From a virus: a stretch of DNA of 43,082 nt. Location of the stretch: IMG/VR virus record IMGVR_UViG_3300018428_000052, positions 1 through 43,082 of that record; one strand, written 5' to 3'. The stretch's first letter is position 1. Every line of letters starts with the position of its first letter. The notes beneath the pieces are model-generated. The model was given only the letters and a program-made list of their open reading frames with translations, ran no database searches and was not told the origin of the DNA. Positions 13,672-43,082 of the stretch are shown here, piece after piece. A program made the translations under genes and the position numbers.

Positions 13672-13679
13672 TATTTATC
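13672..13679 (-). promoter_or_regulatory. Late-promoter-like element GATAAATA
   Basis: GATAAATAC on the minus strand, 18 bases before the ATG at 13653 and overlapping the stop of the giant gene. It is the same variant as at 9008-9015. It would start late transcription of the 204-aa gene and the tail fibres. Confidence 0.55.
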
Positions 13680-16600
13680 GCGGTAATTCAATACTCTTTC
13701 CACGTAAGAAAGTTGCTACTTCTGTATTAGACTGACCTAGTGGTTTATACGTTCCTGTTGTTTCGTCTATAATTTCATTCCAAATTAAACCTTGATTTCT
13801 AACTATAGTTAGCACTGTATTTGGTTCTGGAGGTGCAGTTAGGCGTACATATGCTCCGACATTTTTGTTAACTGCATATTCTGCTTGTAACCAAACATCG
13901 CCATCTGGGCTAAACTGACCTTCGTTTACATCGTAAACTTTAATTGGATTTTTACGAAGTCTACGACCATTTGCAAATACCTCAATATCTTGCGCCTCCC
14001 AATATACTTCTGGGATTCCTAAGTTTTCAAATGCATCCTTGTACCATCCTGTTTCAGTTGCTGGATCCCAAGCGCCTGAACTTGCAGGATTAGGATACGG
14101 AGCAAATGGTAACAATATTTGTACATATGGTAGATACTTAGTAACAACTAAAGTAGTTGAAGGTCTAAATATTGGATCTGTTTCTACTGGATTAATAATT
14201 ACTAAATCGTATGCTCCTACAGGTAATGCTGGAGTTACAAATTGTAACTGTGTTCCACTTATGTATGTTGTTTCACATTTAACATCTTGTACTAATACAG
14301 TTACTCCTTCACGGAACCCTTCTCCGTCTACTGTTGCAATTTGCCCACCTAACGGAAATACTGTATTATTATTAAAGTTATATGCAATACTTGTTACACT
14401 TATTTCAGGACTATTATCCGGATACACCAATGACATATCCTTATATTCTCCTGCAAGTGCTATTACTTCTTCTTGTCTGTCTTTATAAGGAATTGAACTA
14501 TCTACACTTTGATTATAGAATTTAGTACCTGCTTCATAAAGATCTTTAACGCCTGTACCTAAAGTTCCTCTACGTAATTGTTTTAATACATTACCTTCTC
14601 TTCTAAAGAATTCAATACGCTCTCCTTCAATAAAGATTACACCTGGAGTATTTCCTTTTGGATCTGGTGTTGGTAGATTTCCTTCTTGTTCAACTACAGT
14701 AATACTTCTATCATACCAATTTAATGGTTGTGCTAAAGTATATTGATCTTCACTATTTAAACGCTTGTAATGTGTACGATTTAACATATCTTTAAATTGT
14801 CTCCAACCAAACTTATTGGATATTGGAGGATTACTAAAGTGTATAATGTCAATAGAATCGCCATCATTTACTGGTGTAATAAACTCAATGTATTGTTTAT
14901 TTTCTAATAAAATATAATCAGCAGTTGGCGTTAACCATTTATTGTTTAGTGCTACCCAAACATAATCAACACCGACAGCTTCTTGTCTTAGTTTAATTAA
15001 ACCTCTTTTTAAACGTCTATAATCATAATATCCTTGTGATTGATATGTCATTTCAGTACGTTGTACTATATCATAATTTTCTCGTTCTATTCCTTGACCA
15101 TCATGATTGCTAAACTGGTATACCCTTATAATATCACCTTCTTCATAAGTAGCATCAAAATGAAGTACTGGAGTTATACTATCACTTCCTGATGTGTCAA
15201 CAAAAATATCATTTTCGTCCCAATAGCCAAATCTATATTCGCCGTCGTCCATAACATAAACTTTTAGTTCATCGCCGGCAGCAGCAACACCTCTATTAAG
15301 AATTACAGTACTACCTGGTTGTGCATCATCACTAATATTAGGATTAAATGCTGTTGCACCTTCAAATGTCCATTCTTGTAAAAATTCAAGTTCTCTGCCA
15401 TTTAAGAAAACTTTCATATGTGTTCCTGATAGTGTACCTACCGGAACTTGCCATACTTTCATTCTATATTCTAATACATCTTCAAGAACTGTAAACGACT
15501 CACTATATCCTGCATTTAGAAGTTTATCGTTAACTGTTACAATTATGTTAAATGAATCTGGTTCTTGATTAAATGGTGCTCTTGACAATTCGTAACTAGT
15601 GGAAGAGCCGTCTGCTATAATTTCATCTACTGTAACTTGGCTAAATGAATCAATTTCACCGTCAAATAATCCATATTGTATTAATCTATTTTCTTCTGGT
15701 GGTTGAACAAAACGTATAACACAGTTGCCTGGTACTTCGTATGTTTCGTCAGACTCAATTAAATCAAATGCTTGATATTCGCCATTAACTGTTACATACG
15801 CATGAGCTGTTTCACTATAAGCAATACCCGTTAAATAATCTTGTGTTACACCGTCAGCTGTAAATTCATCATAATCTAGAACATTCTCGCCGCCTATGCC
15901 CATACTAATTATTGCAATATTATCATTATCAGCTGGCGGTGTATAGAATATTACTTGATTATTATCATAATCAATTTTATACTTAGACTTGCCATATACA
16001 ATTTCATAGTTAATTTTAACAATAACACTTTCGTATGAGAATGGACGTTGTTTTAATGTAAAGGTAGTTGTTGAACCATCACCTTTAAACAGATAAGTTT
16101 GCATTAAACTAGATCCACTAACTGGACGTTCATACACTGTAATGTCTAGTGCATCAAGTACTTGTCCAGGAATAGTTTCTTCTGGACCTTTACTTGTTGT
16201 TGGTGTTACAAATCCATCACCATCAACATTAATTTCTTCTGCATTGATACCTAATGCTGTTGTATAAGCTAAGTCGCCGCCTTCTAAAGCAGTATCAAAA
16301 CTTTCTTCATTGGGTTTTAACGAACCGTCCGAAGTAGTTCTACGTATTGTTATAATTTCTTTTGGCGGATTATCTCTCCATCCAGGACTAAGATCATCTA
16401 AATATTTGTAATAACCTGTTTGGTTTTCAAAAGTAAAAGTATCAGTTATACCATCACCTATTACCGGAGCCATAAATGCTTTTTTGTTTGCTAGATTATC
16501 AGCACTTGTTGTTCCGTCCCAACCGTCGTCATCTACACGTTCACCATTAATGTAAACATTATATTTTACACCTTTTTGTAACGGAGAGCTTAATTCGAAT

Positions 16601-19600
16601 ACTAATGTACTACCGTCTGTTTCGAATGATTCTTCATCAAAACTTTCGTCAAATATATCCCAAGCTCCGGTATACCAATTGTCTGTATCCCAACCGGTAG
16701 GTCCAGCAAATTCAAATGATTTAACTTGTACGCCGCCATAGTCAACACCGTCCATTAACTGAGTAATATCTTTACCTATTTGTCCGCTAGTTGGATTATA
16801 GAATAAATTAATTCTATCTTGTGCATCTAACAACCTAACTGACTTTTTGTAGTTTACTTCAATTACTGAATTATTTTTTGGCGGATCGTTAAATATAACT
16901 TTCCCATAGTATTTGTCAAAGCCGCTTTCTGTATTGAGATAATTGTCGTAAGTATATTGACTATTAAGTACAAGTTCACCGTTAACAGTAACTTCAACTG
17001 TATTGGTTCTCATATCCATAGGCCAGCTAAGATCGTATTCTGTCTTAGATGCAGTTCCTAAAAACTGTTCTGTTTCATTTAATTGTGTAATAAAGAAAGT
17101 TCCGCTTACTCTATCAAACTTAACAGTGGTATGAGTTGTTCTAACTAAACTATCTCCTATCCTAGCTGAAACTCTTGCTGGATGTCCACCATCTTCAATA
17201 GAACCATTTAGTGTTACCTTTGGAGCAGTAATATATCCACTTCCTGGATTTGTAATAACTATACTAGAAATTTTACCACCTGGGCCTAAAGAGGCCTTTG
17301 CAGTAGCATCACCTTCAATTGTAACAATAGGCGCACTAGAATAACCTGCTCCTGCATCTGCTATAGAAATTTCAATAACTTTATAAGAAGCATTGTCTAC
17401 CCAAAACTTATTTGGGTATGAAGTGTAATTATCAAATGTTCCAGATAAGAATCCGTTAATAACTCTTATGTCACTAACTTCAATGTTGTTAGTTTCTCTT
17501 TCAAATCTTGGAGGATTATCAAAATCAGTAACAGTACTTTGTGAGCTTTCAACAGTTGTATAATCGGAAACATATTCTCTAATTTTAGTTTTATAAGGTT
17601 TAACTTCGTTAATATAATCCTCATAACTAGATAATGCATCATTTTTATATGTAACACGATTACTTAATTTTCCAACATTATGTCTTGCTTTAACAAAACT
17701 AGTTTTAAATGCCCAATCAACATAACCTTGCTCTGCAAATACATAACGTAAACTTGCAAAGAATAATTTATTATATTCGTCTGCTAAATCATTAACTAAG
17801 ATATCATCTCTTAATGCTTCTAAAATAATTCTTGTTTCTGCTATTGGTTGACTATCAAAGAATTGGGTATCAAATGTATTTGTATCAAAGCCAACTCTAC
17901 TTAAATTAAAGTTATACAAGTTATCACTTAATTTTATAGTTCCGTTTTGTTTACCAATTGTTTTATAGTTAACTGTATAGTCTATTGTATCTTGATTATC
18001 AATCTTTTCAAGCAATAACCAACCATCGCTGCCAACATTTAAAATTTTAACAACGTCACCAAATTGATCATTAATACTTTGTAGTCCATAACTTTGTTCA
18101 ATTACATGATCAATTTCTGTAAATTCGTTATAGCCAGTATCGTACCAGTCAATATAATTCCAATACTTGGTTACATCGTATGCTTGACTTCCAATTCTAT
18201 TCCATTCTCTTGCTTCAATATCTCTACTGTATAAAGCCCAATTACCTCTAATTTGACTGTCAGCATTAACAAGAACTGTAAATGGACGTACTTCTATTTC
18301 TGTATTTTCGTTATAATTGTATCCTGTGTTTAATACATTAACTTCAGTTATTTGACCAGCTGTATTAATTACTATATCAAATTCAGCATCTGCGCCAAGC
18401 CCTGTAATTTCATACGTAGGAGGAACTTTATAACCTCTACCCGAATTTAGAATATCAACACGAACCACTTTACCATCTTGTACAATAGGTAATAATTCTG
18501 CCGTAATTAATCTTGATACACCTACAAATTCTAAGTCAATTTCAGTGTCTACTTCAACATCATAATGCCTTGACACTAAAGTAGGAGCAGGGTCATAATC
18601 TAAAAATGCTGATATATTTTTTTCGTCAACTATTAAGTTGTCTTTAAGAACAATATTAACACGTTCAACTAACTGTTTAAGTGCTTCTACTTTATTAATA
18701 AACCAGCTCTGTCTTGGCTTATTAAGAATTCCGTATTTTTCTTTAACACTTAGGTTAGGATCAGGAACTGGTCTTATTTGTTTGTCGTATCCAATTAAAC
18801 TGTCAAACCATTTTTGTTCAATTTCTTTATACGGTTTACTTGTATCTAACCCTTCTGACAATATTTGATATTGATTGTGTATATTACTAAACTTATCGCT
18901 AAATGTCCAGTATTGAATATTTAATACAGTATCTTTATCTTTGATATATGCATCACAGTTGTGCAATGCAAAAGAATTATTGCCAAAGAAACTAATAAAT
19001 TTATATCCTTGTGCTCCTGGATCTTCAATTAATTTTGCAATAGTTTCTACACTAAGAGATCTATTTTCTACTGAAGGTATAGTTGTTTTATTCTTAACCC
19101 AGTAATAGTAATAAGATGTAAATGATTGTGCAATTTTATCATATACACGTTTTTCTACATAAACATCTTTTCCGTATTTTGTAGTACCAGTAACTCCTTT
19201 GCTTTCGCCTTCTGGCTGAGCAGACAATTCGTCCCACTTTTCAGGCTTTAATTTAGATTTTACCCATTCATACACATCAACTGATGCGCCTTCAAATAAA
19301 GTATTAAAATTATTACTTTTATAAACTATATTGTCTTCTATGTACGTATTTAAGAATTTGCTAGTTGTTAAATCCCACCATACTTGACCTACTTGTGCTT
19401 CTCCCCATGATTCAGTTTCATCAACATCAAGATCTGAAGTTCCTAAAGAATAAGTTGCTGGATCAAATATTGTTTTCCAGCGAATTTCTTGATCAGCTGG
19501 TCCTGCAATTTTTCCTTGCACTGGGTCAATGTAATCTAAATTTTCTAAGATAACATTTTTATTACTATCATAAAGCATTACACGTTTTATCTTATCCACA

Positions 19601-22600
19601 TCAACTGGTAATGCTGGTTTACGATATGTTTCCCAAACTCGAGTAGCATCTGATCGTCTATAATCAAGAATTAGACCAAGTTTATTGGTTGATACTCCGT
19701 CACTATCTTTATTATCATATGTTGGAAGACTAACATACATATGATTATTTTTAACACTAATATTACGTCCAAAATATCTTATATTTGGATCATTAAGATC
19801 AAGTGTTTGACCAAACACTAAACTATCTTCTATTCTATCATAAACATATACAACACCATTATTAGCAATAGTATTCTTAAATGATGTAAACCCACTGTCA
19901 AAGGTAGTAGCAGTTGTTCCTGCACTATTTGGATCTAATATATACTTTTTACCGTTAACATTACTTTCAGGAAATAAACGCTCTTGATAGGTATCAAATT
20001 GTGTCACATCATCGCTTGGTGCGCTAAATGCACTAACAAATAACATACGTCCATCAAAATCAATGTTTCCTCCAAATTGCTCTCCTCTAACTGGGTTAGA
20101 ACTTACAAGTGTTTGAGTTAATTCAAACTCTCTTACACCTATTGCAGGATTATATGTATAAACATATACTGTGCCTCTTTCTTCGCCATCTTCAGTATTC
20201 GAGTTTGGAGCAGAAACTGCTACCATAGTTCCGTCTTGACTTACACTAACTTGATTTCCAAATTCATCATTATCTTGAGTGGTTACAAATTCTTGATATT
20301 TTTGATAGTTGCCGTTAACATTTCTATATAGTATTACTTTGTTTGGTCCGTTATTATATTCTGCGGTAACTGCTAAAACTTCGCCGTCGTCACTTATATC
20401 AAAATCTTTACCAAATGATATTAAGCCGTCTTGTTCAAGTTTTAAACTAGAATCATTACCAGGAACATTATCAGTATTATTAGGAATAAATCCAACAAAA
20501 TCTACACTCCTAATACTATCGCTGGTAGACAAACTCCAGTCGAGTATATTAAACTTGTCTCCTGCTGCAATATTAGTTTGTGCAGTATAGAATTCACCAT
20601 CATTAAATATAATATCGTTTAGATAATAATCTCTATCTTCACTAAAGCTACCTTTATATCGCTTGTCTTTTGCAAGTTCCCAATTATAAGTTAGTCCTTC
20701 TTCGTCAGTACCGTTATTTAAGAAATAGATGCGCCCTGGGTTTTCTTCAGTACCATTTCCTTTACAGCCAATAAATGCTCTATAAAAATCGTTTTGTTTA
20801 GCAATCTTAATTTTAGAACCAATTTGTAATTCGTCAATTTGATCTGGAACAATAAAAGATCCTAAAGGTGTAAATGTGCTTACATTTTCTCTAACATATA
20901 TTGAATAAGACCCATAGTTGTTAAGAGGAAGTGCAACACCATTTGCATTTACAGGAACTCTAAAAACGTTTTTCCAGTTTAAGTTTACTGATGACGGTAT
21001 ATTTGGTTCAGTAGGCAATCCTAAAATTTCACTGTCTTTATAGATAATATATTCTGCCCCAATAATTGTATCGTTTACTGGAACTTCATCAATTTCTGTA
21101 TCAAGTTGGAATACGCAAAGACCGCCAATTCCTAAATTTTCTGAACCTAGTGAAACTGTCTTAATGTCGCCTAAAGGTCTTGTAACATTATAAATTGTTG
21201 AAGGATTGTTTGGAATCCTTAACATTTCAAGTATAGCAGGTTGTCCATTATCAGAACCTAATGACCAAGGATTTTCTCCAGCAACATTTTTAACAAAAAT
21301 AGTTGCTTCGGCACTATCTCTCTGATAAAAAGTTATTTGTGCAGTTGCACCTGTATTTTGATCTCTTACAAACTGTCCAACTAGAGGTTCAAATCTACGA
21401 CCAAAATCATCTGTTTCGTCTAATGCAAATTTAATGTATCCGTCCCATAAGTCATATAACGTATGAGTTTTATTAGTGTCAAAGTAATTTAATCCGGAGT
21501 CAGTAATGTCAACAAACGAACCATCATTTAAATTAGCAAAATTTAAAACTCTTAAACCAACTTTATCGTTATTTTCATCGCCTGGAGCAACTACGTCTAA
21601 AATATCTGTTAGACTCTTTGGAGCTCTAACTACAAACAGGTCACTTTTAATAATATCAAACTCGCCGTATGCTCCTGGTTCGCCTTCGGACGTTAATGTT
21701 CTAATATAACTGTTTTGATTATTATCGCCTGCAAATAATTCTGTATTATTATAATCCCATATATTTCCGCCAGCTGCGTCTACTGGATCTTTGCCTGCTG
21801 GAACAATGTTATATATTGCTAAGGCTCTACCTTCATCTTCGATAACGTCACCTGATAGTATTGGTTGTGGAGATGAAAACTCTTCAGGTCTATTAAATAG
21901 CCAATATCCACCTAGTTCGTCAGTTGTATCTACTTCTGCAAGTTCTTTAGGAGCATTACGAACATACTGTCCAAGGAACTCTCCTGTTTCTAAGAATACA
22001 GAATTAGTTTCCTGCCAAGTACCTACAGATCCAGTAACGTAAATTACTACACTAGGTCCTTCTTGATATGTATAAGCTACATAACCAAACACACCTTGTG
22101 ATTCTATCTGATCTCCAACATTAGGAATCTGAGAAAATGCATCTATATATAGCACAACATCGATTTTGTTTTGTATTACTAAACCGCTTTCTAAAAATTC
22201 TTCAGTTACCCAAGGTAGTCCTTCGCCGCCAAACGGCTGTCTAAATAAATTATTAGGATCTTGCTGTTGATTTGCAGAAGTTTCCGCATACCAATCTAAA
22301 TAAACAGTATCTCCAATGCCAGTAGCCCTATATTGATCTGCTCCTGCTCTTACTAAAATATGATCTGCTTCTGTATTTTTAAACGGATAGTTGCCTGCTA
22401 ATAAATTATTAAATTGTATTTCGCCAGAAGTAATATTATTGTCTACAATAACTTCAACCATTGCAGTAAAGCTACCAAATGGTTGAGATAAATTAGCACC
22501 TTGAATATCTACTATAGCTTCCCATAACTGTTCTTCATAAGATACAATTTCAGTATTTTGATAATCAGCTGTTGGATCATATTCACCTTTAAATTTAGTT

Positions 22601-25600
22601 TTTACATTTGAAGAGTTAGGCGAGCCAACAATCAAATACTTTCCGTCTGAACTAATATCAATACCTTTACCAAATCCTTTATTAAGATCTGATATTGTTG
22701 ATATAGGTTCAATTATTTGCGTAAATTGGAAGTTTTGATTATTCCCGCCTCTAGTGTATAAGAAAACTTTTCCGTCATTGCCAGCAGTTGGCGATGCTAC
22801 TGCTAATGTAACGTTTCTACTATCAACTGCTAAACTACTTGCAAAATTATTGTTAATGCCTAATTCTTCTCCTGGAATTCTTTGCAATAAGTTGTATGCC
22901 TGAGTATTTCTAAGAACTCGCCATTGATTTCTATCATCTGTGTCAACCCATAACAAATCATTTTTATTAATTCCTTCTTGTGCAATTTTGTTTGCATCGT
23001 TATATGTATTTGCCCTAACTGGGATAAACTTAGATACTATGCCTCTACATTGATTAATATCTGAAATTACTTTATCTGTCTCAATAATAATTTCATTTAC
23101 ACTAACTTTAAGAACTTTAAAGAATCCGTCAGTATCCGAAGAAGTTTGTTTTGCAATAGGATATGTACTATCTTGTGTTGCATAACTTGTCTCAATAAGA
23201 TCGTATATGCCAATAATGTCACCTGGTACAATATCAGTTGTTGATGTGTCAAGTGTAATTGTAAATTGATTTTTATCTGCGGCGCCAATACTAATTGCAG
23301 TTGCGTTACCTTTTATACTTGTAATAATATAAGAAGAGTTTACATGTTGATAAACTGACCAATCACCGTTTCTATTTCCTACCCAAACATATTCCTTATT
23401 TTTAACCTCAGTAAATGATTTATTTACAATATCATCATAGTTTGCTACTGTAATAGCAATATCTTCAATATGTGTATAACCTGCATCTCTAGTATATTGA
23501 GGTAAAGACTCTGTTACAGGAAATGGAGTATTATTATACTTTGCCGGTTTCTTAAATACACTGAAATCAGGAATTCTATATACTAAATCTGTTTCTTCGC
23601 CAGTAATATCATTAGTAAGCAAGAATGGCTGAGGATTAGATCTAATAAGTGATTCGTCTAGTTTAAATTCAACTTCATCAAATCCTTCGCTTGCGCCATA
23701 TTGACTTTGTTTAATTGCCCATTCTTCGTAAAAATCAATACTTTCTTTATCATTTTCACTTAAAACATCAAATAATTTATTAAGACTGTTTAGTGTGCCT
23801 TTTTCTTTAATCATTCCTTGATAGAATTTATATTGGCTTACATCGTCATTAATAATATTTGCTAGATAGTTTCTATTTTGATAACCTATTAAGTGTTGTG
23901 CATATTTTTGCTGCTCAATATCAAAGTTATCTGTATCTAGATCATAGAAATCTGCAAATTGATTAGTTTTATATTCAAAGTTTGTTAACAATCTACTTTC
24001 TGGTTTTTCAGATAGACGTGACCAATATTTGTCATCAAATAAAAGACTTCCTGGAACCTTTTCATTTGCACTATAAAAGAATTGTTTATGTTTAACTAAA
24101 TCGCCAATAGAATAGTCTTTCCAAGATTGCCATTCAGTAATTATTGCTTCATCGTATATAAACCCAGGGACATTTAAACTTCCGTCCCAATCAACGGTTC
24201 TATATCCTAGTGTACGAATTCTATCTTGACGATATCCAGTTGCTGGCTGATAGATAATATCTCCAAATACAGTAGTATTATCTAGTATTACTATATGCTC
24301 TTTTCTTATAATAGGAATTTGTACTGCATATACTCCATCGCCTGTTTGTTTAGGACGAATTTTAAACTTATTTGGTTCTTGTCTGCTAATGCGAGTAAAT
24401 TCTTCTACTAATTTTGTACCATCAGATTTAAGTAAACTATAACCATAGAAGTTATCAAAAATATTGTCAACTGTTGAATATTCAGTTTGGAAGTTTATTT
24501 CGTCTGCAACAGGACTCAACGCAATAAGTGCGCCTTCAGACCAATTCTGCGTAGTCCAGAACATAAACTCACGACAGCTATTTTTCCAATCTGATAGTAC
24601 TTTTTCCTCGCCGTCATAATATTCAAATCTAAAACCTTGTTCTATTAGCCACTGTTCGTAACCTAATAAAAAGTCTACAACGTCTTGAATTGTTCTTAAA
24701 TTAGTTCCGTAAGGTAAAATTTCTTCATCAAACTTATTAAATCTCACTTTAAAAGTTGCATCGGCTCCTCCAATTGTAGGAAGTTTTGGAAGTTTAGTAA
24801 ATTTTGAAGAATCAAAACTTAATGCTGCTGTATGTGTTTCTATTACACTAAAAAATGAATTTTGATGCTGTACTATCTTTCCTTTATTATAAAGTTGTCC
24901 AGCTTCCCATTTAGAAAAACTTTCTGAAATTCCTCCAACATTAATCGTTACATCTTTATTAGAACTAAACGGACGATACCATTTAAATACCGGATTCTCT
25001 TTATTATAACCTCTTATAATAAAACCAGACGGACGTTTTTCTACAATAACACCGCTATAATTAACTGTTTTTATTGGAGAACTAGTATGCAACGCTATAT
25101 TATAATTTTCTTCTGGAATGAACACATTGCCACTATTTAAAGGTGTTCTAGACTCTAAAATTAATTTAAACTTACTCTTATCTGTAAATCCACCTAATTT
25201 AAAAGCAAGACAGTTTTTAATAGATTTAAGTTTACGTTTATAATCATCAAAATTTGAAGTTACACTACTTGACATAAACGCTGAAATATAATTAACTAAT
25301 CCAGATGTAAGTACTTGTGTAGAATCTGCTGAGGTATTTGGAAATACTAAATCAGATAATTTTATATGGTCCATAGTTGGTTTATATACTAAATGACCAA
25401 GAGTATTTCTAATTTGCCTAGATCTATCAAATCCTGCTGATAGCAAAGAACTAGGAGAATTAATAATCCAACTTGTTAATAATGCAAAAGGAAATTCTGA
25501 ACTTTGTCTCCAAGCATTTTCAATAGGAGAATTATCTCCAAATACAAAAGAAGAATCTAAACCAACACTAGCAAATCGTTGAGTTGCGTTTGAGTCTGAC

Positions 25601-28600
25601 GGACTTAATAAGTTACCATCTCTGTCTACTGGTAAAAATTTAGTTAGTCCTGGACGAGCATACTTAGAATTGATTTTAAAGGGCTCTCCTGGTTTTCTAA
25701 TAATTCCTTTTTCTAGGTCTTCCCACATTAGTAAGTTTTCGCTAGTATAAGGAGCAGGGCCGTATTGTTCCTCCCACCATGTAGGTTTAATTGTATATCC
25801 TAGCATTTCCCAAGGTTGTGTATGAGGACGATCTGTATCAAATAGTTGACGATAAACTCCTCTCCACCAGCCTGCTAATTTTTCACCAGTTGGTGAATTC
25901 ATACTTGAATAATTCCAAGTAAAAGAATCTATTCTATCAAAATATCTATGTTCAGTATAATCTTCGTCTATTAACTCTAACCATTGAACAAAATCAGTAA
26001 TCATTGGACTATATACTTCTGTCCTAGAAAATTGTGTATTTCTAAAAGTACTTGGCAAATAATCGTGTATGTTTAAAATCTTAGGATCGTATTCAGTTTT
26101 TATATTATTAAAAATACGTTTTTCTAAATCTAAAATTAAATCATCTCTGTAATCATTAAATGCTTTAGTTAAACTTCCGTCGTGTCCTCTTATAATTAAT
26201 GGAGCATCGGCATATGTGTCATCAACAAAAATTTCAGGAACATATTTAGGAAAGAGTCCTAGTTTAGTAGGAGTAGACGGTATATATGTGCCATTAGTAT
26301 TTTCATATTCATTAATTTCTAATGTATCACCAAACTCCTTTTCAACTGTTACTTCTAAATATCCTTCACTATTAAAAATATAATCACGATTATGAAGTAA
26401 TTGAACACCGTTTAAATAAACTGTTACTGCACGAGTACTTAACTCAGTTAAATCAAATGGTGTAGTAAGTGCAAAAAATCTAGTATCTTTATCTTCAATC
26501 AAAATTTTAGTAGTAACTGCTGCGCCATAACCGATCATATCTGAAAAGTAAAATGGCATAGAATTAATTTTATCTTTAGTAATTTCTTCAATTATTTTAT
26601 CAACATGCCCTCTAACAGTTCCGCTATAACTAATAGATTCTGCTGCTTCTAAAAATAATCTTTTAAATTTACTATATTCCTTTTTAGAAAATCTTAGAGA
26701 TTTAACAATGTTTGATTCTTTATCTAAAGTTGAAAATAGTGCAAGATTTAAAGGTGCAGAATGTTTAATAAATTTTCTACCGTATGCACTTAGATTTTTT
26801 ATATCTCGTAAATTACTAACTCCAGGAAATACTCCGTTAAAATTAGGAGTATTTTGTGTAATACTACTTACATGGTCTGTAACTTCACCTAAAGTAAACG
26901 TTGAGATATTTTCATTTAGAGGATTTTTTTCTAAGTTTGGTGCAATATCATAATAACCGTTTTGATTTTTAGGAGTACTTGAACTTGTCTTAATTAGAAT
27001 ATTAGCATTCTGTTCAACACTGTTTAAAAATTTAATTGCTTTAATTTTATCTGCTGTATTAACTAATTCATAATCAGTACCTTCGTACACAATAACGTTG
27101 TCTACAAATACTTTAACTTTTAAGTCAGTTAAAAATGCACTGTTATTATAACAATCAATTGGATATTGTAATCTTGTACCGTCGTTTACATATTGTAATA
27201 TTACTTCTTGCTCACTAAGCGCATCTGTTTTAACATACGCTCCTAGTAATTCATATCCTAAATCAGGAATATATCTTCTTAGATATCCGTTACTAACATT
27301 AATATTATATAATTCATCATCAATTTGATATTGTACTATGTCAGTATTAAAATCAAAGTTAAAAACAATATCTCCAACATTATTAATACTTCTATATGCT
27401 ATTGGAAATCCTAAAACAGAATCGTTACTACCAGTTCCCTCTTTATAACTAAAAATTTTAGTTCCTCTAAAACTATTAGCAGGATAAACATTTGTATTTG
27501 AATAACTGTAGCCGTCTACATCAAAAATATCAAATACAGGAGGTTGATTTACTGCTGTTTTTTCTTGTGCTCTATTCCAATCTGTTCCGTCATAATACCA
27601 CATAGATCCAGCATAACTTTCACCCCTGGTAATTAAAATGTTTTCACCTGATTGAGGATCTGAATCAGCAGTTTCAACTAAACTAATTTGTCCGTCGGAT
27701 CCGCTTCCTGTAAACTTAATAAATCTAACTTCAAATATTTTACCTCTAACTAAAGGATCGGTATCTGCTAGAAATACAATTCTCATACCTTCTACAAGTT
27801 GTACACTGTCAATGTTATAACCTAGACTACCTTCTATAGTACTAAAAGCATCAGTAGTAAAATTGTCAAGTAAGTCAACTACTTGTTTTGTCTTTGTACC
27901 AAAATTATAAAGTTTTAATCCGTCTTTGAATTCAATAATTGGTCTGTTAGCACGTTGGCTTTGATCAATATCTAAAACTAAATTATTAATTTCTGCTGAT
28001 AACTCAATAACACTTCTATGAAACCATCTATTGTATCTAGACCAAAAATTTCCATCTGGGCTAGAACGGTTAATAGTAATATAATCTTTATCTCTAGGAT
28101 ATCCAGTTGCAGATCCAAATGGTAAACTATCAAATCCATCAACACCGTCATCAAAAGGTATTAATAAATCAATTCCTACTGGAAAAGAAACTTCTACGTC
28201 AATGTCAGAAACAAGTTTAATTGCATCGCCAACACCTTCTACATACCATTCACTATCAGCAAATTTTGAAGGAGTAACTTCGCCTGAAAATCTTACTTTA
28301 AGACCGTTTGTTAAACTCCATCCATCTCTAGTTTGATAATACTTTTTACCTAAAATTTCCGACTCAACATCAATAAAACTAGCTTCGTCTTGATTAGCAA
28401 CTTTAATTAGTCCACCAATATTAATATCGTTGTCTGCAACATACCATATTTCATTTGGTGTTCCTGGGCCAAGTAATAATTCGATTACTCCGTTTTCTAC
28501 TCCTTGTTGAGATACTTCGTCTACTAGTAAAAATTCATCTTCTAATGTTCTAGCAGATCTAAAAGTAAACGGCAGTCCGGGGGTGTTAATTTCAAATCTA

Positions 28601-29217
28601 TACTTTACACCTCTATACAATTTTAATGTAGGATTATTTGTTGCTCCATCAGGAGTAAACACATAAGAATAGTCTCCAAGAGCATTTTGTAATTCAACAG
28701 TATATGTACTTGTAATTTCTTTTGACTCTCCTGGAATAACAACAGTTTGTGGTCCTGTAGGAAGCCAATAATATTCACGGAAATTTGTAAGCATGTCCCA
28801 ATTGATATTAGGGTTCCAAGCATAGAATTCTTGTTTATTATTTCTACTATGATTTTTATTGTCGCCACCAAAATTCTCAATTTGGTGAATATAATCCATA
28901 TAGTCTCTTAAGAATTCTGTATTTCCTAAATTGTCCTTTACAATACTAACTGGTTCTAGTTGATAATTAGTTCTGTCAGCAGTTACATCTTCAAGATAAG
29001 AATCAGTAGTTGAGTTAAATGCCTTTGCACTTTTTCTTCCTACAAATGAATTAACTTTTTCTGATACTCCAGGTTGTAGTAATTGGTCTAACGTAGATTG
29101 TAAAAACTTAGTATTTTTCTCAGTTCTAAAATATTTGGGTAAGTGTCTAGCACTTTCTCTACGCTGTGGCACTTCACCTGGAAGTGGATATTCATTTTGC
29201 TTATTATCGTCAGCCAT
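13675..29217 (-). CDS. Giant 5180-residue modular baseplate protein (gp7 position)
   Basis: A single uninterrupted frame of 15.5 kb. It lies directly after gp6 (5-base gap), where T4 has gp7 (about 1,030 residues), so it may be an expanded wedge component. Visible modules: a unique N-terminus (1-700); FG-GAP-like propeller blades near 2119-2203 and 2934-3172 (FGKGIDISSDGKYLIVGSP, FGKDFDISDDGEVLAV, FGNQVSVSQDGTMVAVSAP), split by about 730 residues; GxGYxxxPxVxxxG repeats near 3590-3635 and 3950-4004; a run of short modules (FxLxxP..VxVNG..Y.....VxFxxPP) over about 4050-4780; and an IPT/TIG-like Ig domain near 4935-5022. There is no signal peptide. A host-contact or baseplate-periphery role is inferred. 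Coding is certain; the gp7 homology is a positional guess. Confidence 0.85.
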   Translation of the reverse strand: MADDNKQNEYPLPGEVPQRRESARHLPKYFRTEKNTKFLQSTLDQLLQPGVSEKVNSFVGRKSAKAFNSTTDSYLEDVTADRTNYQLEPVSIVKDNLGNTEFLRDYMDYIHQIENFGGDNKNHSRNNKQEFYAWNPNINWDMLTNFREYYWLPTGPQTVVIPGESKEITSTYTVELQNALGDYSYVFTPDGATNNPTLKLYRGVKYRFEINTPGLPFTFRSARTLEDEFLLVDEVSQQGVENGVIELLLGPGTPNEIWYVADNDINIGGLIKVANQDEASFIDVESEILGKKYYQTRDGWSLTNGLKVRFSGEVTPSKFADSEWYVEGVGDAIKLVSDIDVEVSFPVGIDLLIPFDDGVDGFDSLPFGSATGYPRDKDYITINRSSPDGNFWSRYNRWFHRSVIELSAEINNLVLDIDQSQRANRPIIEFKDGLKLYNFGTKTKQVVDLLDNFTTDAFSTIEGSLGYNIDSVQLVEGMRIVFLADTDPLVRGKIFEVRFIKFTGSGSDGQISLVETADSDPQSGENILITRGESYAGSMWYYDGTDWNRAQEKTAVNQPPVFDIFDVDGYSYSNTNVYPANSFRGTKIFSYKEGTGSNDSVLGFPIAYRSINNVGDIVFNFDFNTDIVQYQIDDELYNINVSNGYLRRYIPDLGYELLGAYVKTDALSEQEVILQYVNDGTRLQYPIDCYNNSAFLTDLKVKVFVDNVIVYEGTDYELVNTADKIKAIKFLNSVEQNANILIKTSSSTPKNQNGYYDIAPNLEKNPLNENISTFTLGEVTDHVSSITQNTPNFNGVFPGVSNLRDIKNLSAYGRKFIKHSAPLNLALFSTLDKESNIVKSLRFSKKEYSKFKRLFLEAAESISYSGTVRGHVDKIIEEITKDKINSMPFYFSDMIGYGAAVTTKILIEDKDTRFFALTTPFDLTELSTRAVTVYLNGVQLLHNRDYIFNSEGYLEVTVEKEFGDTLEINEYENTNGTYIPSTPTKLGLFPKYVPEIFVDDTYADAPLIIRGHDGSLTKAFNDYRDDLILDLEKRIFNNIKTEYDPKILNIHDYLPSTFRNTQFSRTEVYSPMITDFVQWLELIDEDYTEHRYFDRIDSFTWNYSSMNSPTGEKLAGWWRGVYRQLFDTDRPHTQPWEMLGYTIKPTWWEEQYGPAPYTSENLLMWEDLEKGIIRKPGEPFKINSKYARPGLTKFLPVDRDGNLLSPSDSNATQRFASVGLDSSFVFGDNSPIENAWRQSSEFPFALLTSWIINSPSSLLSAGFDRSRQIRNTLGHLVYKPTMDHIKLSDLVFPNTSADSTQVLTSGLVNYISAFMSSSVTSNFDDYKRKLKSIKNCLAFKLGGFTDKSKFKLILESRTPLNSGNVFIPEENYNIALHTSSPIKTVNYSGVIVEKRPSGFIIRGYNKENPVFKWYRPFSSNKDVTINVGGISESFSKWEAGQLYNKGKIVQHQNSFFSVIETHTAALSFDSSKFTKLPKLPTIGGADATFKVRFNKFDEEILPYGTNLRTIQDVVDFLLGYEQWLIEQGFRFEYYDGEEKVLSDWKNSCREFMFWTTQNWSEGALIALSPVADEINFQTEYSTVDNIFDNFYGYSLLKSDGTKLVEEFTRISRQEPNKFKIRPKQTGDGVYAVQIPIIRKEHIVILDNTTVFGDIIYQPATGYRQDRIRTLGYRTVDWDGSLNVPGFIYDEAIITEWQSWKDYSIGDLVKHKQFFYSANEKVPGSLLFDDKYWSRLSEKPESRLLTNFEYKTNQFADFYDLDTDNFDIEQQKYAQHLIGYQNRNYLANIINDDVSQYKFYQGMIKEKGTLNSLNKLFDVLSENDKESIDFYEEWAIKQSQYGASEGFDEVEFKLDESLIRSNPQPFLLTNDITGEETDLVYRIPDFSVFKKPAKYNNTPFPVTESLPQYTRDAGYTHIEDIAITVANYDDIVNKSFTEVKNKEYVWVGNRNGDWSVYQHVNSSYIITSIKGNATAISIGAADKNQFTITLDTSTTDIVPGDIIGIYDLIETSYATQDSTYPIAKQTSSDTDGFFKVLKVSVNEIIIETDKVISDINQCRGIVSKFIPVRANTYNDANKIAQEGINKNDLLWVDTDDRNQWRVLRNTQAYNLLQRIPGEELGINNNFASSLAVDSRNVTLAVASPTAGNDGKVFLYTRGGNNQNFQFTQIIEPISTISDLNKGFGKGIDISSDGKYLIVGSPNSSNVKTKFKGEYDPTADYQNTEIVSYEEQLWEAIVDIQGANLSQPFGSFTAMVEVIVDNNITSGEIQFNNLLAGNYPFKNTEADHILVRAGADQYRATGIGDTVYLDWYAETSANQQQDPNNLFRQPFGGEGLPWVTEEFLESGLVIQNKIDVVLYIDAFSQIPNVGDQIESQGVFGYVAYTYQEGPSVVIYVTGSVGTWQETNSVFLETGEFLGQYVRNAPKELAEVDTTDELGGYWLFNRPEEFSSPQPILSGDVIEDEGRALAIYNIVPAGKDPVDAAGGNIWDYNNTELFAGDNNQNSYIRTLTSEGEPGAYGEFDIIKSDLFVVRAPKSLTDILDVVAPGDENNDKVGLRVLNFANLNDGSFVDITDSGLNYFDTNKTHTLYDLWDGYIKFALDETDDFGRRFEPLVGQFVRDQNTGATAQITFYQRDSAEATIFVKNVAGENPWSLGSDNGQPAILEMLRIPNNPSTIYNVTRPLGDIKTVSLGSENLGIGGLCVFQLDTEIDEVPVNDTIIGAEYIIYKDSEILGLPTEPNIPSSVNLNWKNVFRVPVNANGVALPLNNYGSYSIYVRENVSTFTPLGSFIVPDQIDELQIGSKIKIAKQNDFYRAFIGCKGNGTEENPGRIYFLNNGTDEEGLTYNWELAKDKRYKGSFSEDRDYYLNDIIFNDGEFYTAQTNIAAGDKFNILDWSLSTSDSIRSVDFVGFIPNNTDNVPGNDSSLKLEQDGLISFGKDFDISDDGEVLAVTAEYNNGPNKVILYRNVNGNYQKYQEFVTTQDNDEFGNQVSVSQDGTMVAVSAPNSNTEDGEERGTVYVYTYNPAIGVREFELTQTLVSSNPVRGEQFGGNIDFDGRMLFVSAFSAPSDDVTQFDTYQERLFPESNVNGKKYILDPNSAGTTATTFDSGFTSFKNTIANNGVVYVYDRIEDSLVFGQTLDLNDPNIRYFGRNISVKNNHMYVSLPTYDNKDSDGVSTNKLGLILDYRRSDATRVWETYRKPALPVDVDKIKRVMLYDSNKNVILENLDYIDPVQGKIAGPADQEIRWKTIFDPATYSLGTSDLDVDETESWGEAQVGQVWWDLTTSKFLNTYIEDNIVYKSNNFNTLFEGASVDVYEWVKSKLKPEKWDELSAQPEGESKGVTGTTKYGKDVYVEKRVYDKIAQSFTSYYYYWVKNKTTIPSVENRSLSVETIAKLIEDPGAQGYKFISFFGNNSFALHNCDAYIKDKDTVLNIQYWTFSDKFSNIHNQYQILSEGLDTSKPYKEIEQKWFDSLIGYDKQIRPVPDPNLSVKEKYGILNKPRQSWFINKVEALKQLVERVNIVLKDNLIVDEKNISAFLDYDPAPTLVSRHYDVEVDTEIDLEFVGVSRLITAELLPIVQDGKVVRVDILNSGRGYKVPPTYEITGLGADAEFDIVINTAGQITEVNVLNTGYNYNENTEIEVRPFTVLVNADSQIRGNWALYSRDIEAREWNRIGSQAYDVTKYWNYIDWYDTGYNEFTEIDHVIEQSYGLQSINDQFGDVVKILNVGSDGWLLLEKIDNQDTIDYTVNYKTIGKQNGTIKLSDNLYNFNLSRVGFDTNTFDTQFFDSQPIAETRIILEALRDDILVNDLADEYNKLFFASLRYVFAEQGYVDWAFKTSFVKARHNVGKLSNRVTYKNDALSSYEDYINEVKPYKTKIREYVSDYTTVESSQSTVTDFDNPPRFERETNNIEVSDIRVINGFLSGTFDNYTSYPNKFWVDNASYKVIEISIADAGAGYSSAPIVTIEGDATAKASLGPGGKISSIVITNPGSGYITAPKVTLNGSIEDGGHPARVSARIGDSLVRTTHTTVKFDRVSGTFFITQLNETEQFLGTASKTEYDLSWPMDMRTNTVEVTVNGELVLNSQYTYDNYLNTESGFDKYYGKVIFNDPPKNNSVIEVNYKKSVRLLDAQDRINLFYNPTSGQIGKDITQLMDGVDYGGVQVKSFEFAGPTGWDTDNWYTGAWDIFDESFDEESFETDGSTLVFELSSPLQKGVKYNVYINGERVDDDGWDGTTSADNLANKKAFMAPVIGDGITDTFTFENQTGYYKYLDDLSPGWRDNPPKEIITIRRTTSDGSLKPNEESFDTALEGGDLAYTTALGINAEEINVDGDGFVTPTTSKGPEETIPGQVLDALDITVYERPVSGSSLMQTYLFKGDGSTTTFTLKQRPFSYESVIVKINYEIVYGKSKYKIDYDNNQVIFYTPPADNDNIAIISMGIGGENVLDYDEFTADGVTQDYLTGIAYSETAHAYVTVNGEYQAFDLIESDETYEVPGNCVIRFVQPPEENRLIQYGLFDGEIDSFSQVTVDEIIADGSSTSYELSRAPFNQEPDSFNIIVTVNDKLLNAGYSESFTVLEDVLEYRMKVWQVPVGTLSGTHMKVFLNGRELEFLQEWTFEGATAFNPNISDDAQPGSTVILNRGVAAAGDELKVYVMDDGEYRFGYWDENDIFVDTSGSDSITPVLHFDATYEEGDIIRVYQFSNHDGQGIERENYDIVQRTEMTYQSQGYYDYRRLKRGLIKLRQEAVGVDYVWVALNNKWLTPTADYILLENKQYIEFITPVNDGDSIDIIHFSNPPISNKFGWRQFKDMLNRTHYKRLNSEDQYTLAQPLNWYDRSITVVEQEGNLPTPDPKGNTPGVIFIEGERIEFFRREGNVLKQLRRGTLGTGVKDLYEAGTKFYNQSVDSSIPYKDRQEEVIALAGEYKDMSLVYPDNSPEISVTSIAYNFNNNTVFPLGGQIATVDGEGFREGVTVLVQDVKCETTYISGTQLQFVTPALPVGAYDLVIINPVETDPIFRPSTTLVVTKYLPYVQILLPFAPYPNPASSGAWDPATETGWYKDAFENLGIPEVYWEAQDIEVFANGRRLRKNPIKVYDVNEGQFSPDGDVWLQAEYAVNKNVGAYVRLTAPPEPNTVLTIVRNQGLIWNEIIDETTGTYKPLGQSNTEVATFLRGKSIELPR

Positions 29218-39202: not shown

Positions 39203-40213
39203 TTGTTTAAAAAAGCGGCTGTCTTTACAGACATACACTTTGGCTTAAAAGGCAACAGTAGAACACACAATGATGATTGCGAAGAGTTTGTTGACTGGTT
39301 TATCGAGCAAGCAAAAGCAAACGGATGCGAAACAGGCATTTTTTGCGGTGACTGGCACCATAATAGGAATAGTCTTAACCTTACTACTATGGATGCTACT
39401 ATTCGCAGTCTTGAAAAACTAGGCAAAGCGTTTGACAAATTTTATATGTTTGTTGGTAATCACGACTTGTATTACAAAGACAAGCGTGATGTAAGCTCAA
39501 CTATTTTTGGAAAACATATTGAAGGTATCACCTTAGTAGATGAAATCTACGAAGAAGAAGATGTTGCACTAGTTCCGTGGCTTGTAGGAGAAGAATGGAA
39601 GAAGATTGAAAAGATTAAAGCCAAATATATGTTTGGACACTTTGAACTTCCAAGTTTTTATATGAACGCTATGGTACAGATGCCAGATCACGGTGATTTA
39701 AAACCTAGTCACTTTAAAAATCAAGAGTATGTGTTTAGTGGTCATTTCCATAAACGTCAAGTGCAAGGCAAAATCCATTACATTGGCAATGCATTTCCGC
39801 ACAACTACGCAGATGCATGGGACGATGAACGTGGTATGATGATACTTGATAGAGAAAATAACAAAGAACCAGAATACATCAACTGGTGGAACTGTCCTAA
39901 ATATCGCACAACAACACTAAGCAAGTTACTAGATCCTAATGCAGACATTATTAAACCTAAAATGTACTTGCGTGTTACGATCGACTTACCTATCAGTTAC
40001 GAAGAAGCACAATTTATCAAAGAAACTTACATTTCTACACATGGTTGTAGAGAAATTACACTTATTCCGCAAAAACAAATTGAAGAAATTACAACAGACT
40101 TAGATATTTCAGCATTTGAAAGTGTTGACGAAATTGTATCTAAAGAAATTACTGCAATTGACAGTGACAATTTTAACAAAAAGATGTTACTAGACATCTA
40201 TAATGAGCTATAA
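39203..40213 (+). CDS. gp47: Recombination endonuclease subunit gp47 (Mre11/SbcD-like)
   Basis: This 336-residue metallophosphoesterase forms, with gp46, the complex that resects DNA ends for phage recombination-dependent replication. The metal-binding motifs are all visible in order: DIHFG (10-14), GDWHH (49-53), GNHD (85-88), GHF (145-147) and SGHFH (179-183). Length equals the T4 protein (339). Start is TTG with GGAGA 7 bases upstream. The stop is followed at once by the gp46 ATG, so the pair is coupled. The promoter at 39145 precedes it. High confidence. Confidence 0.95.
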   Translation: MFKKAAVFTDIHFGLKGNSRTHNDDCEEFVDWFIEQAKANGCETGIFCGDWHHNRNSLNLTTMDATIRSLEKLGKAFDKFYMFVGNHDLYYKDKRDVSSTIFGKHIEGITLVDEIYEEEDVALVPWLVGEEWKKIEKIKAKYMFGHFELPSFYMNAMVQMPDHGDLKPSHFKNQEYVFSGHFHKRQVQGKIHYIGNAFPHNYADAWDDERGMMILDRENNKEPEYINWWNCPKYRTTTLSKLLDPNADIIKPKMYLRVTIDLPISYEEAQFIKETYISTHGCREITLIPQKQIEEITTDLDISAFESVDEIVSKEITAIDSDNFNKKMLLDIYNEL

Positions 40214-41986
40214 ATGATTAAAGTAAAAGATCTTACAGTAAAAAACTTTATGAGCGTGGGCAATCAGACCCAAGCAGTAGATTTTAATAGAGAGAAGTTG
40301 ACGTTAGTGCTAGGCGAAAATCTAGACCAAGGAGGTGACGACAGCGGGTCTCGTAACGGAACAGGCAAGACAACAATTATTAATGCATTAAGTTACGCCC
40401 TCTATGGAACAGCACTAACTAACATTAAGAGAAACAATCTTATCAATAAAACTAATTCAAAAGGTATGGTAGTTTCACTTGATTTTGAAAAAGACGGTGT
40501 AAATTATCGTATCGAACGCGGTAGGTCACCAACTTTTTTAAAGTTTTTTGTTAATGATCAAGAACAAGAAGCAGAAGATGAGTCGCAAGGAGATAGTCGT
40601 AAAACACAAGAAGCAGTAAACGATTTATTAGGTATGTCGCACGACATGTTTAAGCATGTTGTAGCTCTTAATACATACTCAGAACCGTTTCTCGCAATGC
40701 GAACAAATGACCAACGTGCTATTATTGAACAGTTACTTGGTATTACTATACTGTCAGAGAAGGCAGAAAATCTTAAAGAGCAAATTCGTTCTACTAAAGA
40801 ATCTATTACAGCTGAAACATTAAGAATTGAAGCAATACAAACTGCAAATGAAAAAATTAGTGCTACTATTGTTAGTTTACAAAGTACTCAACGTGCATGG
40901 AATGCTAAAAAGCAGCAAGATCTTGCAAAATTACAGCAAGGATTAGACGAATTAGAACATTTAGACATTGAAGCAGAACTAGAAGCACATGAAAAATTAT
41001 CTAATTGGACCGAACATAACAACGCAATTACGGCTCTTAAAAAAGAATTAAGCACATTAGAGAGTGCATTACTACGTGCCGACAAGTCTGTTGAAAAGGC
41101 GGAAAAAGACATCGCAAATCTTGAAGATGCTACTTGTTATACGTGCGGACAAGCACTGCATGACGACAAAAAAACAGAAATTGAAACAAGAAAAACTAAA
41201 GAATTAAACGATGCATTAGCATATCAAACAGAAGTAAATGATAAAATTAGCGGCGTAATGAAAAGTCTTAAAGAAATTGGAGACATTAATGGGCGTCCGG
41301 TAACTTTTTATGAAAACTCAAAAGAAGCATATGATCATCGCACTAATGTTGACGGATTAAAGCAAGCTCTGCTTTCAAAAGAAAACGAAGAAGATCCTTA
41401 TCAATCTCAAATTGACGAATTGAATAATAGTGCAATGCAAGTTATTGAATGGGATCAAGTAAATGAACTTAATAATCTTAAAGATCATCAAGAGTTTTTA
41501 CTAAAACTGCTTACAAACAAAGATAGTTTTATCCGTAAAAAGATTATTGAGCAAAACCTTGCGTATCTAAACAATCGACTTACATATTATCTCGATAAGT
41601 TAGGTTTGCCGCATCAAGTTGTGTTCCAAAATGATTTAAATGTTGAAATTACTCAACTAGGACAAGATTTAGACTTTGATAACCTATCGAGAGGTGAGCG
41701 TAACAGACTTATACTAGGTATGAGCTTTGCATTCCGTGATGTTTGGGAAAGTTTGTATCAAAACATTAACTTGTTATTCATTGACGAGTTGATTGATAGC
41801 GGTATGGACACTGCTGGTGTTGAAAGTGCGTTAAGTGTCCTTAAAAAGATTGCACGTGAAAGAGAAAAGAATATTTTCTTAATCTCACATAAAGACGAGT
41901 TAGTTGGAAGAGTGAACACAATTCTCAAAGTTGTAAAGGAAAATGGATTTACAAGTTATGAGAATGATGTTGAAGTAGTAGAATGA
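40214..41986 (+). CDS. gp46: Recombination endonuclease subunit gp46 (Rad50/SbcC-like)
   Basis: This 590-residue ABC-type ATPase is the partner of gp47. Walker A is GSRNGTGKT (45-53). A long coiled coil (about 185-450) is broken by the zinc hook CYTC (C308, C311). The ABC signature is LSRGE (491-495), and Walker B is LLFIDE (520-525). Length is close to T4 gp46 (560). It begins directly after the gp47 stop without a strong ribosome site, and its TGA overlaps the hemC ATG (ATGA). All catalytic motifs are intact. Confidence 0.95.
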   Translation: MIKVKDLTVKNFMSVGNQTQAVDFNREKLTLVLGENLDQGGDDSGSRNGTGKTTIINALSYALYGTALTNIKRNNLINKTNSKGMVVSLDFEKDGVNYRIERGRSPTFLKFFVNDQEQEAEDESQGDSRKTQEAVNDLLGMSHDMFKHVVALNTYSEPFLAMRTNDQRAIIEQLLGITILSEKAENLKEQIRSTKESITAETLRIEAIQTANEKISATIVSLQSTQRAWNAKKQQDLAKLQQGLDELEHLDIEAELEAHEKLSNWTEHNNAITALKKELSTLESALLRADKSVEKAEKDIANLEDATCYTCGQALHDDKKTEIETRKTKELNDALAYQTEVNDKISGVMKSLKEIGDINGRPVTFYENSKEAYDHRTNVDGLKQALLSKENEEDPYQSQIDELNNSAMQVIEWDQVNELNNLKDHQEFLLKLLTNKDSFIRKKIIEQNLAYLNNRLTYYLDKLGLPHQVVFQNDLNVEITQLGQDLDFDNLSRGERNRLILGMSFAFRDVWESLYQNINLLFIDELIDSGMDTAGVESALSVLKKIAREREKNIFLISHKDELVGRVNTILKVVKENGFTSYENDVEVVE

Positions 41987-42729
41987 AAATACGTATAGGT
42001 ACTAGAGGTAGTAAATTAGGTATAGCATATGCAGAAAAAGTTTGCAAAGAGCTTCCGTATGACACTGAAATTATTACTATTAAAACAAAAGGTGATTTAA
42101 ATCCAGACACTCCTGTTTCAGAAATAGGAGGCAAAGGTATTTTTTGTAGTGCAATTGAAAAAGAATTGTTAAACGGAAATATTGATATTGCCGTACATAG
42201 TTTAAAGGACATGCCCGGAGACGTCGAAACACCGGGCTTAGTAGTAAATTCTGTTCTTAAAAGAAATAGCGCACATGATGTTATAGTTGGAAAAGTAAAT
42301 TTTGGATGTACAATTGGTACTAGTAGTCCTCGACGAATAGCTCAATTAAAAGACCTTTACAATAACCTAAATATTATTATCAAACCTATTAGAGGAAATA
42401 TTGATACTCGACTAGAAAAACTTGATAGCGGCGAATACGATGCTATTGTGTTAGCAGAAGCAGGATTACAGACACTTAATATTAATAGAACATGGATTAA
42501 AATTCCTATAGTACCTGCAATTGGTCAAGGTATTATTGCACTACAAACAAGAGAAGACGACGAAGTTATAAATGAAATTGTAAAGAAAGTTAATCATAAA
42601 ACTACATATGCGCAAGCCCAATTAGAACGAGCATTACTAAAAGGTATTGGTGGTGATTGTACTACAAAAGTAGCTGCACATGCGACTGGTAGTAATCCTA
42701 TTACCTTAAAGGCAATGTATTATGATTAA
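41983..42729 (+). CDS. hemC: Hydroxymethylbilane synthase (porphobilinogen deaminase), short form
   Basis: HemC joins four porphobilinogen units into hydroxymethylbilane, the linear precursor of haem, chlorophyll, bilins and cobalamin. Visible motifs: IGTRGSKLG (5-13), HSLKDMP with catalytic Asp76 (E. coli Asp84), GTSSPRR (112-118), RGNIDTRLEKLDSGEYDAIVLAEAGL (137-162), PAIGQG, and ERALLKGIGGDC, where Cys226 aligns with E. coli Cys242, which carries the dipyrromethane cofactor. The product is only 248 residues against about 310. Only 22 residues follow the Cys (71 in E. coli), so most of domain 3 is missing. The ATG overlaps the gp46 stop. Probably a host-derived auxiliary metabolic gene. Active residues are retained; activity is unproven. 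Confidence 0.92.
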   Translation: MKIRIGTRGSKLGIAYAEKVCKELPYDTEIITIKTKGDLNPDTPVSEIGGKGIFCSAIEKELLNGNIDIAVHSLKDMPGDVETPGLVVNSVLKRNSAHDVIVGKVNFGCTIGTSSPRRIAQLKDLYNNLNIIIKPIRGNIDTRLEKLDSGEYDAIVLAEAGLQTLNINRTWIKIPIVPAIGQGIIALQTREDDEVINEIVKKVNHKTTYAQAQLERALLKGIGGDCTTKVAAHATGSNPITLKAMYYD

Positions 42730-42925
42730 TGACGATACACATGACAAATTAACCAAAGCATACATGGAATACTTTAAGGCCAACGAAGCATTTGAATCAA
42801 GAAAGTCTCATCGTACCCATGCAGCAAGTAGAAGATTCCTAAGGCAAATTAGAGATTTGGCAAAAGAACGTATGGATGAAATTCATAAAACGTACCAAGC
42901 CAAAAAAGAGGCAGAGAAAAAATAG
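42722..42925 (+). CDS. Small charged helical protein, unknown
   Basis: This 67-residue protein is strongly basic and helical (KLTKAYMEYFKANEAFESRKSHRTHAASRRFLRQIRDLAKERMDEIHKTY), with a predicted amphipathic helix throughout and no recognised domain. Its ATG lies within the last codons of hemC (8-base overlap), so it is coupled to it. The Arg/Lys-rich middle could bind nucleic acid, but nothing more can be said. The coding call rests on the overlap, the absence of other frames and the following gene only 18 bases away. Confidence 0.65.
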   Translation: MINDDTHDKLTKAYMEYFKANEAFESRKSHRTHAASRRFLRQIRDLAKERMDEIHKTYQAKKEAEKK

Positions 42926-42943: not shown

Positions 42944-43082
42944 ATGCAGTGGACTTACAAAGGCAAAGTAATAGATAAAATACCAGACGAGTATGAAGGC
43001 TTTGTATATCTCATAACCAATCTTAAAACTGGGCAAAAGTACGTAGGCAAAAAACTAGCAAAGTTCAAAACAACAAAACCTC
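42944..43082 (+). CDS. GIY-YIG-like nuclease, partial (N-terminus only)
   Basis: An open frame from ATG at 42944 to the window end gives 46 residues. FVYLITNLKTGQKYVGKK (20-37) fits the first strands of the GIY-YIG nuclease fold (the Y-L-I...Y-V-G pattern) with the usual spacing. The preceding MQWTYKGKVIDKIPDEYEG is a short lead often found in small stand-alone phage GIY-YIG proteins. The catalytic Arg and Glu would lie outside the window. The ribosome site is weak. It could be a free-standing homing endonuclease or a DNA-processing enzyme; the full gene is needed to tell. Confidence 0.7.
   Translation, partial: MQWTYKGKVIDKIPDEYEGFVYLITNLKTGQKYVGKKLAKFKTTKP

Follow-up and report, generated by a model that had tools for sequence, protein, structure and literature searches.

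Many related T4-like phages share a short form of hydroxymethylbilane synthase (HemC), often beside heme genes and without two conserved active-site residues, and we therefore regard this form as a real, probably working, rebuilt HemC rather than an error. We consider it probable that the protein is an active hydroxymethylbilane synthase of reduced structure within a mobile tetrapyrrole gene set of T4-superfamily phages, on the basis of family membership, predicted fold, purifying selection, retention of the cofactor-binding Cys and catalytic Asp, linkage to hemE and hemF, and co-occurrence with 5-aminolevulinic acid (5-ALA) synthase and heme oxygenase genes. The starting point was a T4-like contig (hereafter the window: the whole 43,082 nucleotides of IMG/VR record IMGVR_UViG_3300018428_000052) in which hemC, a host-type metabolic gene, lies between gp46 and a segE-like open reading frame (ORF):

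39203..40213, + strand: gp47, SbcD-like recombination nuclease subunit (phrog_100, 7.7e-70)
40214..41986, + strand: gp46, SbcC-like recombination nuclease subunit (phrog_77, 4.1e-102)
41983..42729, + strand: hemC, compact hydroxymethylbilane synthase of 248 amino acids (TIGR00212, AlphaFold and PDB matches)
41983..41986, + strand: ATGA overlap of the gp46 stop and the hemC start, seen in the sequence; probable translational coupling
42028..42030, + strand: Tyr16 codon, equivalent of E. coli Gln19 (alignment)
42208..42210, + strand: codon of catalytic Asp76, equivalent of E. coli Asp84 (alignment)
42472..42474, + strand: Thr164 codon, equivalent of E. coli Arg176 (alignment)
42658..42660, + strand: Cys226 codon, equivalent of cofactor-binding Cys242 (alignment)
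42661..42726, + strand: 22-codon tail, in place of the 71 post-Cys residues of E. coli HemC
42722..42925, + strand: ORF of 67 amino acids overlapping the hemC end (no Pfam or PHROG match; syntenic, in gp46-context relatives)
42944..43081, + strand: segE-like GIY-YIG ORF, cut by the contig end (PF19835, 1.1e-09)

By family, the product of 41983–42729 is a real hydroxymethylbilane synthase, as the original prediction held: it scored 253.7 bits against TIGR00212 in a profile search (cut-off 164) and 207 bits against the Pfam domain 1–2 model, with the Pfam C-terminal model (PF03900) matched at positions 4–38 of 74, below its cut-off. The score against NF002202, a short hydroxymethylbilane synthase equivalog of 241 positions that we take to be the chlamydial short HemC, was 99.6 bits, below the cut-off of 251, and searches of PHROGs and BFVD with the window HemC returned no HemC match. 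Elsewhere in the window, gp46, gp47 and gp55 were nearest (44–52%) to those of Pseudomonas PA5oct-type phages and Sinorhizobium phage Phosso, a single ORF of 5180 amino acids (13675–29217, − strand) sits amid tail and baseplate genes, and a radical SAM protein of 460 amino acids (403–1785, − strand; PF04055) adjoins several ORFs without a Pfam match.

An AlphaFold model of the window HemC, built on a 42-row alignment, had a mean pLDDT of 93.3 and a pTM of 0.89, and its best PDB matches were all PBG deaminases (TM 0.89 to the E. coli structures 1PDA and 1AH5; VIA-align Z of 29.8–31.4 for the top four and 10.6 for the next fold). Domains 1 and 2 are complete in the model, which superposes on residues 4–265 of the 313 of E. 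coli HemC (EC 2.5.1.61). Since domain 3 of that enzyme spans residues 222–313 (PMC3945110), about half of domain 3 remains, as one helix and two strands; the earlier statement that most of it is missing thus overstated a genuine shortening. The fold of domains 1–2 and of the first half of domain 3 is accordingly common to the phage and E. coli enzymes, and bacterial HemC continues with a distal half of domain 3 that the phage enzyme lacks. One consequence counts against an active enzyme: the contact of E. coli K55 with E305/V306 cannot form in the compact protein.

The short C-terminus recurs well beyond the window. The 22 residues after Cys226 noted at the outset are plain in the sequence, and viral ORFs at the loci of our first two scans have 22–25, except for two interrupted or partial hemC copies (L079 and L102); complete cellular copies are longer overall (293–332 amino acids versus 248 in the phage), and, where a motif located the Cys, 53–74 residues followed it in nearly every case. 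When IMG/VR was scanned with a viral alignment, 224 of the 247 pattern matches encoded a relative (the best 80 were kept); hemC is thus widespread, although it was not at first counted among the common auxiliary genes of T4-like marine phages. A sequencing or assembly frameshift near 42660–42730 that hides a normal C-terminus, named beforehand as a potential pitfall, is contradicted by the tail itself, which recurs across many viral copies (among them independent contigs at 98% and 63–75% identity) and two gene contexts, and by a read-through that crosses stop codons and gains only 11 profile positions; its probability is practically negligible. A separately encoded domain 3 was also considered and rejected: the 67-amino-acid ORF downstream matches no family and is absent in the other gene context.

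Loss of half of domain 3 and of two active-site residues could instead mark an inactive or decaying gene in which the truncation is a loss of function. Against this, the median dN/dS was 0.098 over 550 viral hemC pairs (not independent, because the viral contigs are partly redundant), the last 25 codons are themselves constrained (mean pN 0.049 versus pS 0.46), the predicted fold is confident and the same form occurs over many viral contigs in two contexts. Given the recurrent short tail, the dN/dS of about 0.10 and the constraint on the tail, we exclude both frameshift and decay, the latter as very improbable. The expectation that loss of function is unlikely is therefore upheld, although not for the intact core on which it partly relied, as the equivalents of Arg176 and Gln19 have been replaced.

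These replacements emerged when 99 viral and 89 cellular HemC sequences were aligned with E. coli HemC. Common to both sets are Arg11, Ser13, Lys83, Asp84, Arg131, Arg132, Arg155, Gln198 and Cys242 (E. coli numbering), with Arg149 and Lys59 nearly invariant; the window HemC keeps Asp76, Lys75, Arg8, Ser10, Arg94, Arg117/118, Arg137, Arg143, Gln182, Arg216 and Cys226, and shares with E. coli HemC the cofactor Cys, the catalytic Asp and equivalents of Arg131/132/149/155/232. The link between the Asp and the Arg pair is shortened, as proposed (41 residues versus 47 in E. coli). The claim that all catalytic and cofactor residues are kept did not hold: the conserved chain-handling residues Arg176 and Gln19 are Thr164 and Tyr16 in the window HemC, and both positions are changed in 99/99 viral and 0/89 cellular copies (at position 176, Ala in 82 viral copies, Thr in 14, Glu in 2 and Val in 1, versus Arg in every cellular copy; at position 19, Tyr in all viral and Gln in all cellular copies). 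Virus-specific changes also occur nearby in the pocket, among them Glu or Gln in place of Val171 and a conserved Arg169. Arg176 and Gln19 are a feature of cellular enzymes rather than part of the curated TIGR00212 definition, and their loss lowers certainty about mechanism more than about HemC family membership.

Published data on Arg176 count against an active enzyme, with human Arg195 presumably the equivalent of E. coli Arg176. In E. coli, R176H is detrimental, affecting the transitions from ES to ES2 and from ES2 to ES3, and Gln19 touches the terminal ring in simulations (PMC3945110); human Arg195 forms a salt bridge to a pyrrole-chain propionate and is mutated in porphyria (PMC7907807). 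Because Arg176 and Gln19 are changed, an altered polymerising mechanism is possible. Specifically, phage HemC may have rebuilt its site without these residues before domain 3 was cut, so that chains would be extended or released by another mechanism, or end at another length, in a way suited to making tetrapyrroles in the infected cell, a scenario that we consider conceivable but unlikely. Quite unlikely, in our judgement, is neofunctionalization, in which the altered pocket (Arg176 and Gln19 lost, Val171 replaced by Glu/Gln) would yield another chain length or release, or mainly bind porphobilinogen, so that the product would not be normal hydroxymethylbilane. The universal presence of Arg176 and Gln19 in the cellular copies and their absence from every viral one, the effect of R176H on elongation and the further virus-specific changes in the pocket fit such a shift, but the enzymes encoded by the neighbouring hemE and hemF use substrates from the normal pathway, the remaining cofactor-binding and catalytic residues do not vary, and the basal viral form (L292) retains Gln19 and a nearly full domain 3.

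Transitional forms among the phages suggest, as their simplest reading, that Arg176 was lost first, Gln19 then became Tyr and domain 3 was truncated last. The divergent phage copy L292 keeps Gln19 but has Met at 176, with 55 residues after the Cys; L293 has Tyr at 19 and Cys at 176, with 56; in the L256 and L274 types position 19 is Tyr and position 176 Thr or Ala, with 49; and the short phage forms have 21–27. In trees, viral HemC forms a clade (support 100/99) with L292 basal, within which the short forms group together less firmly (96/75, the same node being unresolved with other taxa). Two genes upstream of this most basal hemC lies an ORF that looks, by eye, 5-ALA synthase-like (L292:1157-2365, 402 amino acids), with an oxygenase-like ORF between them.

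The tree proposed in the original prediction thus supported a viral clade but gave no donor, as no sampled cellular clade was sister to it. The nearest cellular HemC was at most 42% identical to the viral proteins and, although HemC is present in 235 of 289 alphaproteobacterial genomes, no complete short form was seen among the alphaproteobacterial matches listed. Two families of streamlined alphaproteobacteria were rejected as donors (not sister to the viral clade), as were the apparent HemC–HemD fusions of small alphaproteobacterial genomes, which are only about 32% identical and, by eye, keep the Arg. These fusions (L231-L234, L236, L240 and L242-L244) are about 490–510 amino acids long; their HemC part aligned only to about profile position 245–281 of 293, and the HemD part was assigned by eye. 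A SAR116 MAG contig (68%) is neither donor nor firm proof of host, because it is a T4-like phage contig (L194:1-12488) with nrdA, nrdB, glutaredoxin, tail proteins and a partial hemC; its binning is a possible host hint or a mis-binning. Matches to HemC, HemE and HemF in phage collections were left out because they appear to stem from host sequence caught up in phage assemblies; the one that we examined lies within a hemC–hemD operon beside bacterial genes.

Genomic neighbourhoods place viral hemC in a phage tetrapyrrole gene set. The predicted coupling to gp46 was borne out: the window's ATGA overlap has exact counterparts, with a bare 4-nt gp46/hemC overlap in 54 of the 79 loci holding both genes, and the same overlapping chain includes hemE between the two genes in 14 loci and both hemE and hemF in 4. 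In one locus a 92-amino-acid membrane-like protein (L085:4723-5001; TMEM65-like, PF10507) lies between gp46 and hemC, and L086-L088 have the same gp46–hemC spacing. A second context consists of cyanophage-type T4 genes; the NrdA adjoining one such hemC shares 70% identity with its counterpart in Synechococcus phage S-PM2. In a scan for viral HemF, hemC adjoined hemF at all 32 loci and a clear hemE was also present at 27 of them, in two gene orders. Phage HemF is short (about 261 amino acids, profile to 271 of 295, ending just past LMSLPP; L005:4219-5004, L026:4103-5005) and, as it stops short, may be a trimmed enzyme too. Among 27 hemC phage records, hits above cut-off were found for 5-ALA synthase in four and heme oxygenase in three, and hemE was present in four and hemF in two; one record (G007) combines hemC, hemE, 5-ALA synthase and heme oxygenase. 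The same records, which are incomplete fragments, held nothing above cut-off for hemB or hemD. Most gp46-context loci, although fragments, show no other heme gene, which counts against such a set. In the window, where 353 bases remain after hemC, neither hemE nor hemF adjoins it.

Hydroxymethylbilane is upstream of all tetrapyrroles, and hemC stands alone at many loci, as might be expected if it fed siroheme or cobalamin synthesis instead of heme; adjoining hemE and hemF, which commit flux to heme, and the heme oxygenase in three records make this highly doubtful. The earlier idea, that a minimal HemC increases tetrapyrrole flux during infection, is partly supported and remains the best-supported one, greatly strengthened by the clusters with hemE and hemF and by the co-occurring 5-ALA synthase and heme oxygenase; the activity, the cellular partners and the effect on infection are inferred. 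Most likely, the compact HemC would act with host HemB and HemD to raise heme flux. Cys226 would carry a dipyrromethane cofactor made from porphobilinogen, to which four further porphobilinogens would be joined before hydroxymethylbilane is released; host HemB would supply the porphobilinogen and host HemD would close the ring to uroporphyrinogen III (roles given to the host because neither gene was found in the hemC phage records examined), after which host or phage HemE and HemF would carry on towards heme. The enzyme would be smaller for lacking the distal half of domain 3, and we conjecture that this lack, like that of the Arg176 and Gln19 contacts, may be offset elsewhere in the pocket (for example, by viral Arg169, Lys134 and Tyr16). 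In the gp46 context, hemC is probably translated together with the gp47–gp46 recombination genes, and the phage might benefit in that respiratory cytochromes of the infected host, and other heme enzymes, would be supplied with heme.

Parts of this system were known before. A 2020 report on a pelagimyophage (putative deep ecotype) names porphobilinogen deaminase and coproporphyrinogen oxidase (PMC7029224), placing both functions in a T4-like marine phage as here, a likeness by function name only. Viral 5-ALA synthase, described with hemO-pcyA/X-valaS cassettes, complements an E. coli 5-ALA auxotroph (PMC11480375); these too are phage tetrapyrrole genes, and four of our hemC records carry 5-ALA synthase, but the cassettes concern other pathway steps and the names hemC and hemF are absent from the main text. 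Phage Vp16 peptide deformylase, an unrelated enzyme, is active without its usual C-terminal region (PMC5591237). Both are precedents for an active compact phage HemC. In the open-access literature that we searched, which leaves out most subscription journals, neither the reduced HemC nor hemE–hemF–hemC cassettes were found described.

HemC is highly conserved, its chain-elongation mechanism is still debated and defects in the human enzyme lead to acute intermittent porphyria; a large natural family without the elongation-linked arginine and half a domain therefore offers a direct test of which parts of HemC are needed. For the phages, the hemE–hemF–hemC cassettes, and the 5-ALA synthase and heme oxygenase that some of them encode at other sites, suggest intervention in heme metabolism at multiple points, with HemB and HemD seemingly left to the host.
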